Positions 20,070 through 36,733 of a DNA stretch of 41,025 nt are shown here, piece after piece (position 1 is the first letter of the stretch; each line of letters opens with the position of its first letter). Under the pieces are notes generated by a model. The model made no database searches and was not told the origin of the DNA. It saw only the letters and a list, made by a program, of their open reading frames with translations. This DNA comes from Caryophanales bacterium (GTDB taxonomy: Bacteria; Bacillota; Bacilli; Paenibacillales; CANHCR01). The stretch is taken from NCBI GenBank assembly GCA_947459205.1, contig CANHCR010000021.1, forward strand, positions 1 to 41,025, given 5' to 3'. A program made the position numbers and the translations under genes.

Positions 20070-20702
20070 ATGTACGATACGGTGCTGTTTGATTTGGACG
20101 GCACGTTGATTGATACGAACGAGTTGATTATCCAGTCGTTTTTTCATGCGTTAGCAGACGTTCGCAGCGATTTGACGCGTGAGGAAATCATCCCGCAAAT
20201 GGGAAAAACGCTGAATGAACAGTTGCGGATTTTGAGCGGGCGGACGGATGTCGATAATCTACTGAAGGCGTACCGCGAATATAACGTCGCTCATCACAAC
20301 CAGATGGTGCGACTGTTCCCTAATGTCCACGAATGTTTGCAACAACTTCGCGAGCAGGGCGTGAAACTCGGGGTGGTGACGACCAAAATGCGCGCATCAA
20401 CGGAGCGCAGCTTGCGATTCTTTCATCTGCTGGAACTCTTTGACTGCATTGTGACAGTGGAAGATGTCGAGCACCCCAAACCCCACCCTGAACCTGTGCT
20501 TCAAGCGTTGCAGTTGTTGGGCGCGGATGCAAACCAGTCGGTCATGGTTGGCGACAGTGCATTCGACTTGTTGGCGGCTCAAGCAGCCGGTGTGAAAGCG
20601 CTCGGCGTCGCCTGGTCGCTAAAAGGTGCCGATCACCTGCAGCAATTTCAACCGGTGACCATCATCGACGATATGTTACAAATTCCGGCGTTACTTCGGT
20701 AG
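20070..20702 (+). CDS. ppaX: Pyrophosphatase PpaX (HAD family)
   Basis: HAD hydrolase of 210 residues that splits inorganic pyrophosphate. In Bacillus it removes the pyrophosphate made when HprK/P dephosphorylates HPr, which explains its place in this operon. Motif I DLDGTLIDTN is at residues 8-17 with the nucleophile Asp8. The motif II threonine is in GVVTTKMRAS, lysine motif III in HPKPHPEP, and motif IV in MVGDSAFDLLAA. AAGGAG precedes the ATG. The last codons and the stop form the left half of the operon terminator. Confidence 0.92.
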   Translation: MYDTVLFDLDGTLIDTNELIIQSFFHALADVRSDLTREEIIPQMGKTLNEQLRILSGRTDVDNLLKAYREYNVAHHNQMVRLFPNVHECLQQLREQGVKLGVVTTKMRASTERSLRFFHLLELFDCIVTVEDVEHPKPHPEPVLQALQLLGADANQSVMVGDSAFDLLAAQAAGVKALGVAWSLKGADHLQQFQPVTIIDDMLQIPALLR

Positions 20703-20715
20703 CGTCGGTTTTTTT
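20685..20715 (+). terminator. Terminator overlapping the ppaX stop
   Basis: CCGGCGTTAC pairs over a TTCG tetraloop with GTAGCGTCGG (ten pairs, two G-T), then seven T. The left arm is ppaX coding sequence. Confidence 0.9.
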
Positions 20716-20766: not shown

Positions 20767-20775
20767 CATATGATA
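20767..20775 (+). promoter_or_regulatory. Possible mother-cell (SigK/SigE-like) -10 element
   Basis: CATATGATA matches the CATANNNTA -10 form of SigK promoters. No convincing -35 is seen. It sits about 35 bp before the cysteine-rich operon, directly after the ppaX terminator, where this operon must have a promoter. Weak evidence for sporulation control. Confidence 0.3.
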
Positions 20776-20809
20776 TCGCGACTCCATGTTAGAAAGAGGT
20801 TGATGAGAG

Positions 20810-21364
20810 ATGGGACAGCAAGATCCATGTGCGAAACTATTCATTTCCGCAGACGATTGCGAAACGTTGTGTCCGCCATGCCCGACAGATTCGCTGCGTG
20901 ACGGCAAAACGTTTCAAGTGCAACTTGAGAATTTGCCTTCGAGTTGTACGGTTGAGTTCACGCAAGATATATTTGACGTCGTGCAATGTAATGAAGAAGT
21001 AGATGTTTTGTATGACAGTTGCGAACAACCGGTCGACATCACGCTTTGCGAGGGAACTTCCTCGGAGCAGACGATTTCCTGTTGTTTGACGCTCGATTAT
21101 TTGCAACTGAAGGGCGATCTCGAACTGTTGTTCAATATTGGCGGAATTTGTGCTTCAGATTGTCTGGTCGAACCGAAAGTACTGTTTTTTCATGCCGTCG
21201 CAAAAGTGAACGTTGACGAACTGTGCTACTACTGTGTCGGTACGCGTCCGACGATCACCAACGGCGACTTGTGCGATTACTTTTCCATCGTCATCGACAG
21301 TGTCAGTCTTACTGGTTTAGTGACCTATACCGTACAATTTTTAGGATGCCCGGCACCGTTATGA
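20810..21364 (+). CDS. Cysteine-rich protein, paralogue of the 21978-22880 C-terminal domain
   Basis: Not a family I recognise. The 184-residue acidic protein has 16 cysteines (positions 7, 17, 21, 24, 46, 60, 71, 80, 91, 92, 114, 118, 139, 142, 155, 180), no signal peptide and alternating hydrophobic residues typical of beta strands. It aligns along most of its length with the C-terminal half of the protein at 21978-22880. Shared blocks are CPPCPxDSxRxG, SEQxxxCxLxLDYxQLxGxL, VDExCYxCxGxRP and a terminal TYxVxFxGC. No signal peptide but many cysteines is the pattern of spore coat or appendage proteins, so a spore-surface role is plausible but unproven. First gene of a four-gene operon; its stop overlaps the next start by 4 nt. 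Confidence 0.75.
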   Translation: MGQQDPCAKLFISADDCETLCPPCPTDSLRDGKTFQVQLENLPSSCTVEFTQDIFDVVQCNEEVDVLYDSCEQPVDITLCEGTSSEQTISCCLTLDYLQLKGDLELLFNIGGICASDCLVEPKVLFFHAVAKVNVDELCYYCVGTRPTITNGDLCDYFSIVIDSVSLTGLVTYTVQFLGCPAPL

Positions 21365-21645
21365 GTGAAGTGAGCAACGGACGTCATGTTGCGCGACCAA
21401 GACGAAGCGGTTGTGGTTGCGGGGGTGCACGCAAGCGCCAAGTAGAGCAAGTGACGATAGAAAATGTGCCGACGACCGAGTCGACGCATACGGCAGAGGT
21501 TTTGCCAGTGAACGGCGAATCAGTTGAAAAACCGAGCAGCGAGCAGAGCAGTCGGAATTTGCGCACCTCTGCGAGTGGCGACAGGCCGCTCACCAAGTCT
21601 GTTCCTCGCAATCGGTTCACTCGCCGCAACAAAGGCAAACGATGA
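21361..21645 (+). CDS. Small basic, probably disordered protein in the cysteine-rich operon
   Basis: Unrecognised 94-residue protein. The N-terminus has a basic cluster with RRSGCGCGGARKR. The middle is low complexity, rich in Ser, Thr, Glu and Val, and the C-terminus is again basic (RNRFTRRNKGKR). It has no membrane segment or signal peptide. Its ATG overlaps the previous stop (ATGA) and its own stop overlaps the next start (ATGA), so it is translated in a coupled series. The open frame extends upstream to 21223, but that part lies inside the preceding gene. The composition resembles linkers found in spore coat proteins; no function is assigned. Confidence 0.65.
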   Translation: MSEVSNGRHVARPRRSGCGCGGARKRQVEQVTIENVPTTESTHTAEVLPVNGESVEKPSSEQSSRNLRTSASGDRPLTKSVPRNRFTRRNKGKR

Positions 21646-21962
21646 CCAGTTCCTTATCAATCGTAGAGTGGTTGGTGCTCGCACTCGCCGTCTTCCGTTT
21701 GGTACGATTGATGCTGTTTGACACAATCACGCGCCCAGTACGCTCCTATTTTTTGCAGGAAAACGATGAGGAAGTAATTATCAGTGGGAGCGGCTGGCGC
21801 TTCCTCATCGGCTACTTGCTAACCTGCCATTGGTGCGCCGGTATTTGGTGCGGCTCAATCGTTGCTACAATTTATCTGCTCGCACCGTGGACATTTCCAC
21901 TTTGGCTCGGGTTGTCTTTAGCGAGCATTTCATCGCTGTTACACGAGTGGTTAGAAACATAG
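21642..21962 (+). CDS. DUF1360 (YngL-like) membrane protein
   Basis: Short 106-residue membrane protein with an N-terminal helix (about residues 7-27), a central polar stretch and two further hydrophobic segments from about 46 to 98. The CHWCAGIWCG motif near residues 57-66 is the conserved cysteine/tryptophan core I associate with DUF1360. The family is common in spore-forming Bacilli and its function is not established. The ATGA overlap with the upstream gene and the 15-bp gap to the next place it firmly in the cysteine-rich operon. Confidence 0.8.
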   Translation: MTSSLSIVEWLVLALAVFRLVRLMLFDTITRPVRSYFLQENDEEVIISGSGWRFLIGYLLTCHWCAGIWCGSIVATIYLLAPWTFPLWLGLSLASISSLLHEWLET

Positions 21963-21977
21963 AGGGGGGCTTTGGAA

Positions 21978-22880
21978 ATGGCGACCAATCAGGTCGTGAT
22001 CGGCGGTTTTACGATTACATTTGACGGCGTAACACCTGTCAGTGGCGGCTATCAGTGGTCCTACACGATTGTCAATGACGGTTCCGAGAAAGACCTTAGC
22101 AATTGGGTGCTGGAGTTGCGGGATTGCAAAAACTTGCCGCCCAAAGTGTCTTGTTCGCTCGGTATGTGTGAGTTGACGGAGCAAACTTGTCCGCCGAAGA
22201 CAGTGAGCGAAGATGAAAAATGCGGGACATTTTTCGGCATTAAGTTCGATGACTTGCCTTCGGATACGTTGAAACAGACGTTCACTTTTGTGATGCCGCA
22301 ATTTGCAATACCCGAAGATGGCTGTTTCTATTTGAAATTCGGTCAAAATAGGGTGTGCGGCAACATTGCGGTACCGAAATGTGTCGATGACCCGCCATGT
22401 CCGCCATGTCCAAAAGACTCGATGCGCGAAGGTCGAAAAGTAACCGAGCAATTGCAGCTTCCGCGGATTGATTGTGCGTTGAAGTTGGTTGATGAAAAGC
22501 CGAGTGGTTCCTTGTGTGTCGGTGGCATTGAAATTTTGCCAGGCAAGTGTGACGAGCTCGTCGAGTTGACATTGTGCGGGCAAACCGCGTCGGAGCAACA
22601 ACTGAACTGTTTGTTGCCGCTTGACTATGTGCAACTGAGCGGAAACTTGCAAATCGTCTGGCAAATTCGCACCGTTCTCGAAACGGTGTGTGAGCCAGAG
22701 CCTGTAGAACTGACTTTTATGGCAGTCAGCACATTGTCGGTCGATGAAATATGCTACTTTTGCTTCGGGCAAAGACCAGATGTGACGCCAGAGGATCTGT
22801 GTAACTGGTTTGACATTGAGATTGTTGAATCAACGCCGAGCGGGCAATTGACGTACATCGTCACGTTCGCTGGTTGCTAA
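21978..22880 (+). CDS. Two-domain cysteine-rich protein
   Basis: Unrecognised 300-residue protein. Residues 1-130 look like a separate beta-sandwich-like module (ITFDGVTPVSGGYQWSYTIV, then NWVLELRDC) with its own cysteine pairs. From CPPCPKDSMREG near residue 141 to the end it is a paralogue of the 20810-21364 protein, keeping the same order of cysteine blocks and the final TYIVTFAGC. No signal peptide is seen. The ATG at 21978 has GGGGGG nine nt upstream; a TTG six bases earlier is an unlikely alternative. Last gene of the operon, closed by a bidirectional terminator. Probably a structural partner of the first protein (inference). Confidence 0.75.
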   Translation: MATNQVVIGGFTITFDGVTPVSGGYQWSYTIVNDGSEKDLSNWVLELRDCKNLPPKVSCSLGMCELTEQTCPPKTVSEDEKCGTFFGIKFDDLPSDTLKQTFTFVMPQFAIPEDGCFYLKFGQNRVCGNIAVPKCVDDPPCPPCPKDSMREGRKVTEQLQLPRIDCALKLVDEKPSGSLCVGGIEILPGKCDELVELTLCGQTASEQQLNCLLPLDYVQLSGNLQIVWQIRTVLETVCEPEPVELTFMAVSTLSVDEICYFCFGQRPDVTPEDLCNWFDIEIVESTPSGQLTYIVTFAGC

Positions 22881-22882
22881 TA

Positions 22883-22938
22883 AAAACGGGGTGTCCCAAG
22901 GTCATGAATAATGACTTCGGGACGCCCCATTATTTTTT
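22883..22938. terminator. Bidirectional terminator
   Basis: GGGGTGTCCC (22888-22897) pairs with GGGACGCCCC (22919-22928), with an inner GTCAT/ATGAC stem. T runs follow on both strands (TTTTTT at 22933-22938 on plus, TTTTTA from 22887 on minus). It serves the cysteine-rich operon and the convergent nuclease gene. Confidence 0.92.
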
Positions 22939-24000
22939 CGATTTGCGGAAGCCAGCATTGAGCGCTTCCTGTTCGTTACAAAACAGTTGCTCCGGTTTTG
23001 TGATATTGTAGTAGTCTCCGCCAGGAACGTGGTATATTTTTTCCTTTTTGCTATTGATGTTCCCCTTAATCAGCGGATTTGCACAACCACTTTTCGCATT
23101 GTAATTGGATGGCATCGTACGGTCGGGCACTGTCACTACCTCACTTGGCAGTCCCCAAAGTCCGCGTGCCTGCGTTCGTGCACTCGTTTGCAACGCTCGA
23201 AACAAATCCACCCAGCGAACATTCGGCGGATAGGTCATCATTTGTGCATACCCTTGGTTCATCAGCGAAGCGTTAAAAAATGTGCCGTCAGTAAAGTACA
23301 AATAGCCAAGCAAACGGCCGTACTTGTCACGCGGTTCGACATCGAGCTCAATCAGCACTTGTTTGCCCGTGAGTTGAGATTTGCTGAAATTCGACGCTTC
23401 ACGACCGTACGGTTCCTCGCCGATACGCGGGTGCACCGTCTCTGGAGTGTCGACACCGATCAAACGGATCCGCTCATTGCGATTGTTCCAGCGAATTTCC
23501 AAAGTATCTCCGTCTATGACTTTCATCACTTGTGTACGTACCATCTGCTGTGTGCTCACGGTAATGATTTGTGCATGTGCTTGCCAACCGGTTGTAGCGC
23601 CCATCGCTTGCGCTAGCGGACGGAGAGGTACGAGGGACTGGCCATTCGCTTGTTGACAAGTTGTTGGAAGGCGACTTGTGTTGCCATTGATGACGGCGCG
23701 AGCCTCGCCGACCTTGCAGGAGAAACGTAGTTTCCCGCGCTGCACCGAAATCGTTTTCGTACTGCGATTGTATGTGAACCTGGCATTCAGGGCTGCGGCG
23801 AACGGTGCACTCGAGACGAGCCAATGCCCGCCTTGACCTGCCTGCGCTTTCGTTGTTAACAGATTGCCGTTTACATAAATGTCTGCAACACCGGCAGGAG
23901 ATTGTGCTGCTTTCAATGGATATGTGAAAAAAGTGGCGACAATCAGCGCGACGATGACGACAATCAGCAGCAGTATTTGATAGTGTATGTTTCGCAACAT
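22930..24000 (-). CDS. Secreted or membrane-anchored thermonuclease with N-terminal stalk-like and C-terminal sunset-like motif
   Basis: Staphylococcal-nuclease-type enzyme of 356 residues, predicted to degrade DNA and RNA outside the cell with calcium. Residues 8-27 form a signal peptide or membrane anchor. Residues 38-150 resemble the copper amine oxidase N-terminal (stalk) domain, with YVNG, GTTGW-like and LVPLRPLAQAMGA segments. The nuclease domain follows: D163 in VIDGDT, R179, D184 and E187 in RLIGVDTPE, R229 in DKYGR, all catalytic positions kept. The C-terminal 45 residues (GNINSKKEKIYHVPGGDYY) match the sunset motif. GAAAGGGGCG precedes the start on the minus strand. Confidence 0.9.
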   Translation of the reverse strand: MLRNIHYQILLLIVVIVALIVATFFTYPLKAAQSPAGVADIYVNGNLLTTKAQAGQGGHWLVSSAPFAAALNARFTYNRSTKTISVQRGKLRFSCKVGEARAVINGNTSRLPTTCQQANGQSLVPLRPLAQAMGATTGWQAHAQIITVSTQQMVRTQVMKVIDGDTLEIRWNNRNERIRLIGVDTPETVHPRIGEEPYGREASNFSKSQLTGKQVLIELDVEPRDKYGRLLGYLYFTDGTFFNASLMNQGYAQMMTYPPNVRWVDLFRALQTSARTQARGLWGLPSEVVTVPDRTMPSNYNAKSGCANPLIKGNINSKKEKIYHVPGGDYYNITKPEQLFCNEQEALNAGFRKSKK

Positions 24001-35750: not shown

Positions 35751-35770
35751 ACATCGTGACAACATAAAAT

Positions 35771-35799
35771 ATATTATCACATGCCATTATCATTTGCAA
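35771..35799 (-). promoter_or_regulatory. Candidate promoter of tRNA-Arg
   Basis: On the minus strand TTGCAA (35794-35799) and TAATAT (35771-35776) are 17 bp apart, about 20 bp before the tRNA. Confidence 0.45.
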
Positions 35800-35851
35800 A
35801 GTGTTTTTCTACAGTGGCATTGATTTTCTAAGCCGGAAAAGGGCGGTGCTA

Positions 35852-36733
35852 ATGATGGCAAACGCAAAGCAATTGAAGGAAAAAATCATACTGTTTCCAA
35901 CGGCAATCGATCGTTACCAAGTTCAATTGATCTCCTATCTGGAACAAGAACGGTACGGCGACGCGCTGTCGCTTTTGACCTTTCTGCAGAACTTCTCTGT
36001 CGATGAGCAAACGTCCAAAGAGTGGCACGTGCTAATGACATGGTTGCGCGGCAGCATCGATGAACCGCACGATTCTGACGATGAGGAATGGACTGAGGAA
36101 AAATTTCACCGTCAACGCGTGCAAGACCGAATCGAACAAGAAGAGCAGTTTGCCGACAAAGTGCTAGACACGCTGACACAGACGTCGAAAATGGAAAAAC
36201 AATTGCTTGCGCTGGAACAATTATCTGTCGTCAACCATCCGCAAATTAACGGCAAAATCACCGAATGGCTAGAAAACAAGCAAATACATCCGCTCGTTCA
36301 GTTCAAAGCGCTGCAAGTTTTGCGCGGTCGCAATGCCAAAGGGACGGTGCGTCTTCATAAAAATGGTCAGGTGCTCCAATGCAACATTGAGGCGACTCCC
36401 TTGCAACTCACGCAATTTCCCGTGGCAATGCGCCGTGTGCTGAATCTTGTGATTGAGGCGAGTGAGCAAAGGTATGCTTCGATTGGATTTTTTGCAGAGG
36501 AAATTTGGTGTGATTTTATTTCTTATATTTACGGGACTCCGTTGTACATCAACATGTCTAACGAATCGGGACTAGGGATTGCCGCATGGGCATCTGTGCT
36601 TCATCAAATTGTATTGGAGTCTTTGCAAATGTCGATTGACTACGAAGATTTGAAACTGTTGTACGCCGTCGATCCTGTTGCTGATGAGCAACGTCGCAAG
36701 GCTTATATTCTCCTCAAAAATTATGCGCAATAG
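35852..36733 (+). CDS. YsoA-like hypothetical protein upstream of trigger factor
   Basis: Cytosolic, mostly helical protein of about 293 residues. The N-terminal part (GDALSLLTFLQNFSVDEQTSKEW) looks like TPR-type helical repeats. An acidic region about residues 68-110 follows, then a globular C-terminal part with IGFFAEEIWCDFISYIYGTP. In Bacillus the gene before tig is ysoA, a TPR-repeat protein, and position plus architecture suggest this is its counterpart; sequence identity cannot be judged here. Start at ATG 35852 or the next codon 35855; AAAAGGGCGG is just upstream and favours one of these over the ATG at 35801. Confidence 0.65.
   Translation: MMANAKQLKEKIILFPTAIDRYQVQLISYLEQERYGDALSLLTFLQNFSVDEQTSKEWHVLMTWLRGSIDEPHDSDDEEWTEEKFHRQRVQDRIEQEEQFADKVLDTLTQTSKMEKQLLALEQLSVVNHPQINGKITEWLENKQIHPLVQFKALQVLRGRNAKGTVRLHKNGQVLQCNIEATPLQLTQFPVAMRRVLNLVIEASEQRYASIGFFAEEIWCDFISYIYGTPLYINMSNESGLGIAAWASVLHQIVLESLQMSIDYEDLKLLYAVDPVADEQRRKAYILLKNYAQ

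Follow-up and report, generated by a model that had tools for sequence, protein, structure and literature searches.

A four-gene operon encoding a narrowly distributed cysteine-rich protein family with a possible role at the spore surface

Layout of the operon

The window, that is, the whole stretch of 41,025 nucleotides analysed here, carries four open reading frames on its forward strand between positions 20810 and 22880, in the order gene A, gene B, a DUF1360 gene and gene C. Gene A (20810–21364, +) encodes a protein of 184 amino acids with one copy of a new cysteine domain, gene B (21361–21645, +) a basic, low-complexity protein of 94 amino acids, the DUF1360 gene (PF07098; 21642–21962, +) a small membrane protein of 106 amino acids, and gene C (21978–22880, +) a protein of 300 amino acids. 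The mechanically called reading frame of gene C begins at a TTG at 21972, and the ATG at 21978 was taken as its start. The first-pass annotation had described an overlapping four-gene operon with two ATGA junctions. Each of the four reading frames is indeed present, and the ATGA overlaps join A to B and B to the DUF1360 gene; gene C itself lies 15 bases downstream of the DUF1360 gene and possesses its own AGGGGGG-type ribosome site. The ribosome-binding region of A, AGAAAGAGGTTGATG (20791–20805, +), is kept in the second genome that carries the operon (G011, below).

On the 5′ side, a terminator-like hairpin located 3′ of ppaX (20685–20708, +), composed of a 10-pair stem followed by a T-run, sets the operon apart from the hprK-lgt-ppaX genes. 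On the 3′ side, direct reading of the sequence revealed a terminator-like inverted repeat, GGGGTGTCCC...GGGACGCCCC, with a T-run (22888–22938, no strand assigned), which is situated between the operon and a convergent SNase gene and is absent from the list produced by the hairpin scan. In the product of this convergent neighbour (22930–24000, −), a thermonuclease-like SNase is joined to a copper amine oxidase N-terminal domain (Cu_amine_oxidN1) and, at the C-terminus, to a ‘sunset’ domain (NF051437).

A cysteine domain shared by A and C

Protein A and the C-terminal half of protein C align without a gap, with 58 of 154 positions identical (38%, E=4e-35), bearing out the ordered cysteine pattern that had been claimed for the pair. 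Ten cysteine columns are common to the aligned block, which holds 12 cysteines in A and 10 in C, all 10 of the latter being aligned. This coincidence of cysteines was reached by 0 of 200,000 permutations, and 48 of 142 positions remain identical once the cysteine columns are set aside; the match therefore exceeds what mere cysteine composition would give. The three motif blocks named in the first-pass annotation occur without deviation in both proteins of the window and in a looser form in the second genome (CLPCPINTLKEG, SEQTLTCCLALDYLKL, IDELCYYCDGTAP), and 12 cysteines are invariant across all four domains, those of A and C in both genomes. In protein C, the domain homologous to A occupies 22386–22880 (+) and is proposed below to serve as the docking domain of an adaptor. 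It is preceded by a different N-terminal module of about 136 amino acids with 8 cysteines (21978–22385, +).

Both proteins are acidic. Protein A contains 16 cysteines (8.7%) and has a pI of 4.1, and protein C contains 6.7% cysteine and has a pI of 4.3, such that the earlier figure of 8–9 percent holds for A and is too high for C. A hydrophobic segment resembling a signal peptide was looked for in A, B and C and none was seen, as the first reading had it; a search for membrane segments in A and C likewise returned none. Coat proteins and ENA proteins usually lack signal peptides.

Distribution of the operon

Among 399 genomes of the order, A and C occur together only in the window genome and in one other, the metagenome-assembled Paenibacillaceae RE-23may17-333 (G011; contig CANHGK010000001.1), leaving 397 of 399 without them. 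This second carrier, which belongs to another family of the order, has all four genes, arranged as in the window. Across 400 genomes of the class no further A or C was found; the single match (G543, E=0.008), interrupted by four internal stops, is of the level expected by chance and was rejected. When about 85,000 species genomes were scanned, one contig matched, again CANHGK010000001.1, with the qualification that the scan used two short conserved patterns, which diverged relatives could escape. Viral, phage and plasmid collections yielded no relatives.

Between the two carriers, A is 49%, C 39% and the DUF1360 protein 51% identical. B has diverged further, to 24% identity, with little kept beyond its basic character and CxCG start. 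The flanking genes differ: hprK-lgt-ppaX and the SNase gene in the window, and TetR-like and cold-shock-like genes on one side and an amylase gene on the other in the second genome (L006). Since the gene order is the same in both genomes despite these different flanks, the four genes hold together as a unit.

Searches for related families and folds

The two cysteine proteins had been put forward as a novel family, with a sensitive profile search, fold prediction and a neighbourhood survey named as checks. The profile search matched A and C to no described family. Specifically, A, B and C have no family match in Pfam and NCBIfam, and A and C returned nothing from the sequences of the PDB. Known cysteine-rich or fibre-forming spore families were compared in turn. 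Neither A nor C matched the ENA pilins (PF13157, DUF3992) at E<=10, with a hhalign probability of 0.4%; the CotZ/ExsY family (PF10612) gave no Pfam match to either protein and no hhalign similarity to A; the BMQ_0737 family (NF052457) gave no match to either and a hhalign probability of 0.2% for A; and F-ENA DUF4183 (PF13799) gave no Pfam match at E<=10. Three candidate identities for A were weighed in this way. A visual likeness to BMQ_0737 proteins (ILCAPEGT..CHISFFECD..LVC against C.VEF....VVQC) did not survive profile comparison, which also rejected homology to CotZ, and homology to the ENA pilins is unsupported.

Fold prediction was moderately successful for A and poor for C. The AlphaFold model of A, built from only four sequences, is all-beta with long strands (pLDDT 78, pTM 0.67), while that of C reaches a pLDDT of 53. 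Against the folds of the PDB, the A model has no match at E<=0.001, and the matches listed have TM-scores of <=0.2. As for a jelly-roll likeness to Ena1B, the model is all-beta and without a significant PDB match. Taken together, the sequence and structure searches support the view that A and C constitute a previously unrecognised, narrowly distributed cysteine-rich family, with no profile link to CotZ, BMQ_0737 or ENA.

The N-terminal module of C shows a weak similarity to a cysteine-rich protein from a genome of the same phylum (L083, G912; hhalign E=6e-5, probability 65%), which spans a C..F.GIK...TFxxP...K.G core. This is the one lead kept of three weak matches in the phylum, and a single match among 349 genomes is about what chance would produce. 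The locus in question (L083, 54–1962) encodes two adjacent cysteine-containing proteins, one of which bears a carboxypeptidase-regulatory-like domain; the second, weakly like the C module, belongs to no curated family.

A promoter-like motif shared with an ENA gene

The window genome encodes sigma-K (322 bits against a NCBIfam cut-off of 299). A possible sigma-K-like −10 element had been noted at 20767, and this element, CATATGATA (20767–20775, +), precedes the start of A by 43 bp. It fits the sigma-K −10 consensus, CATANNNTA, at the usual distance before the operon. By itself the consensus is not enriched in the window, being found 9 times where 9.3 are expected; 2 of the 31 main gene starts have some CATANNNTA within 70 bp. 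Because the motif is not rare, its match before A counts only alongside comparative evidence. The −35 region is unconvincing as well, with a best match of 4/6 positions on direct reading for a GKMACM-like element about 15–17 bp upstream of the −10 at A.

The identical 9-mer CATATGATA also precedes the genome’s ENA gene, at a distance of 41 bp; neither the rest of the 41-kb window nor 30.7 kb of other loci from that genome contains a further copy. In the second carrier, the aligned site before A reads CATATCGTA, and CATACATTA lies 46 bp before one of its ENA genes. The common −10-like 9-mer is suggestive of shared control of the operon and the ENA gene. Elsewhere in the window, at 35763–35771, CATAAAATA lies 38 bp before a gene at 35801–36733 that has no NCBIfam match, and is possibly another sporulation promoter.

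Both carriers possess ENA genes, and in both the operon is far from them or on a different contig. The window genome has at least one ENA pilin (PF13157), followed by a second ENA-like gene that scores 18.9 bits, just under the cut-off. Their locus (L014, 1403–2379; contig C6, about 5.7–6.7 kb) encodes a 138-aa pilin, and the second ENA-like protein has a basic, cysteine-containing N-terminal arm. The CotZ (PF10612) and BMQ_0737 families were searched for in both carrier genomes and not found.

Protein B and the DUF1360 membrane protein

Protein B (94 amino acids, pI 11.3) is of low complexity and carries RRSGCGCGGARKR in its N-terminal part. It resembles short, basic CGCG-KK proteins encoded next to DUF1360 in Bacillaceae-type genomes. 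In 8 of the 30 DUF1360 loci examined, which are the best-scoring ones and not a random sample, there is within 400 bp, on the same strand, a gene for a short basic protein whose sequence ends in (K/R)n-CGCG-(K/R)n; in 117 kb of comparison DNA this pattern turned up once, as a stray match.

The DUF1360 membrane protein reported between A and C is a genuine member of PF07098 (70.6 bits against a gathering cut-off of 21, E=1.2e-19), and a divergent one, since the best-scoring members reach 120–130 bits. It retains the C-x-W-C-x-G-x-W and FRLxxL motifs, with the CxWC adjoining a hydrophobic segment. C-x-W-C-x-G-x-W is kept in 32 distinct aligned members (L023–L052, L006 and the window), a count biased upward by their collection with a pattern that contains these motifs. 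Conceivably, the CxWC is a thiol-active or metal-binding site. The family is present in 63 of 301 genomes of the class and rare in the window’s own order (9 of 151); among 14 control genomes it was found in B. subtilis only, where we take YjcA to be the DUF1360 protein. The yjcA gene is under sigma-E control (PMC517825) and adjoins cotV (PMC11708026).

The neighbourhood survey placed DUF1360 beside coat and ENA genes, and also beside RecT. In the Bacillaceae-type loci among the best-scoring 30, neighbours include CotZ (PF10612) and BMQ_0737-family (NF052457) genes, the latter in several genera. On B. megaterium spores, the BMQ_0737 and CotX proteins are outermost (PMC4656864). Closer to the window, a genome of the same order (G030) has a DUF1360 gene whose operon also encodes a 102-aa cysteine-rich protein and an ENA pilin with a K/R/C-rich arm, and this operon is adjoined by a second, divergent ENA gene (L078, 3813–5100, and L090; C1, 2768.3–2770.2 kb). 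In two further genomes (L068 and L069; G117 and G101) DUF1360 adjoins RecT recombinase genes, which suggests a prophage or mobile-element version. Because of these RecT neighbours, DUF1360 is not exclusive to sporulation and is, on its own, no proof of a spore role.

A proposed spore-surface assembly system

The reading we prefer, at a probability of roughly 55%, is that the operon specifies a spore-surface assembly system, in which A supplies building blocks linked by disulfides, C serves as adaptor to the spore, and B and the membrane protein assist. The operon would be expressed late in the mother cell. Protein A would be the repeated unit, its beta-rich, cysteine-rich domain assembling and then being locked by disulfides; such a polymer is proposed for a protein whose model is moderate and matches no fold. 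Protein C would act as adaptor, its C-terminal A-type domain docking onto or capping the A polymer and its N-terminal module tying it to another spore layer. This division of labour is proposed from the single-domain and two-domain layout of Ena3A/ExsL and F-ENA/F-Anchor. Protein B, small and basic, may be a partner that binds A and C, whose pI is about 4, or the coat material, and the DUF1360 protein, with its conserved CxWC, may act at the membrane during assembly, perhaps through thiol chemistry. We infer a surface location for the products, in line with the original suggestion of a spore-surface or appendage system; this is favoured by sigma-K, the ENA gene, the shared 9-mer, the coat and ENA neighbours of DUF1360 and the CGCG protein, and the structure formed may be an appendage or a coat or exosporium sheet.

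The sheet is the best of the alternatives, on balance a doubtful one. Given that CotZ and BMQ_0737 were not found in either carrier, A and C may themselves form an outer sheet, a lineage-specific basal layer or crust that replaces CotZ/ExsY, without fibre or anchor and with C as a second, larger subunit. That these very families are the neighbours of DUF1360 in Bacillaceae-type genomes speaks for such a replacement, and the cysteine content and missing signal peptides fit ExsY/CotZ-like sheets. However, A has no profile similarity to CotZ or BMQ_0737, and the domain and adaptor layout, along with the ENA link in G030, suits an anchored polymer at least equally.

It is improbable that A and C are instead accessory proteins, such as a ring, tip or tether, of the ENA fibres encoded elsewhere in the genome. 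The 9-mer common to A and the ENA gene, the ENA operon of G030 that includes DUF1360, and the ENA genes of both carriers would all accommodate such a role, but G030 has ENA genes without A or C, A and C are missing from all but two of the genomes searched in the order, and in neither carrier does the operon adjoin the ENA genes. Highly improbable is an operon unrelated to sporulation, a cytoplasmic metal or redox cassette or mobile-element cargo: the RecT genes beside DUF1360 in two genomes, the sporadic distribution of the operon and the potential of its CPPCP and CYxC motifs to bind metal are countered by the sporulation-type promoter motif, by the coat and ENA neighbourhoods of DUF1360, by the lack of recognisable phage-like genes adjoining the operon in either genome, and by the lack of a match to C in the phage collection and to A in the plasmid collection.

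The spore-surface assembly system, if real, would add a new structural protein family to the outer spore layers, built on the subunit-plus-adaptor plan of L-ENA and F-ENA. The widespread and uncharacterised DUF1360 would gain a testable role as the membrane partner of cysteine-rich spore-surface proteins, a role proposed because CotZ, BMQ_0737 and ENA genes are its neighbours in different lineages. A bolder form of the idea, unlikely in our estimation, would have A polymerise into a disulfide-locked spore fibre of a new class, one without sequence kinship to S-, L- or F-ENA and served by an adaptor of its own, C. In this form DUF1360 would be a membrane factor of general use, possibly thiol-active via its CxWC, in the assembly of cysteine-rich spore-surface polymers of the CotZ, BMQ_0737, ENA and new types.

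Comparison with known systems

The closest parallel in design is the L-ENA system of the B. cereus group. ExsL tethers L-ENA through a CotZ part that enters the ExsY sheet and an ENA domain in common with the fibre subunits (PMC12921279). Like Ena3A and ExsL, A and C pair a one-domain subunit with an adaptor that has another domain at its N-terminus and the subunit domain at its C-terminus. Synthesis of the S- and L-ENA subunits takes place late in the mother cell and is probably controlled by sigma-K (PMC12921279); the same timing is proposed for the present operon. Unlike the ENA domain, the A/C domain is unrelated to PF13157 by sequence or profile, and C has no CotZ domain.

In the F-ENA system, F-Anchor has its domain in common with F-ENA (PMC11952670), a recurrence of the subunit domain in the anchor protein that resembles the arrangement of A and C. 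F-Anchor, however, combines collagen with DUF4183, whereas A and C have no DUF4183 match, and the M-P-x-x-x-P hook motif of F-ENA is absent from A.

Resemblance to the sheet-forming and coat proteins lies in composition and neighbourhood. CotZ, CotY and ExsY (PF10612) are cysteine-rich outer-layer proteins whose genes adjoin DUF1360 in Bacillaceae-type genomes, and the BMQ_0737 morphogenetic coat protein (NF052457) is similarly cysteine-rich, outer-layer and encoded near DUF1360; A differs from both in the profile comparisons given above. The DUF1360 protein of the window, by contrast, is a true member of its family, above the cut-off and with the CxWC in place, and is set apart from other members by its divergence and by the operon in which it resides.
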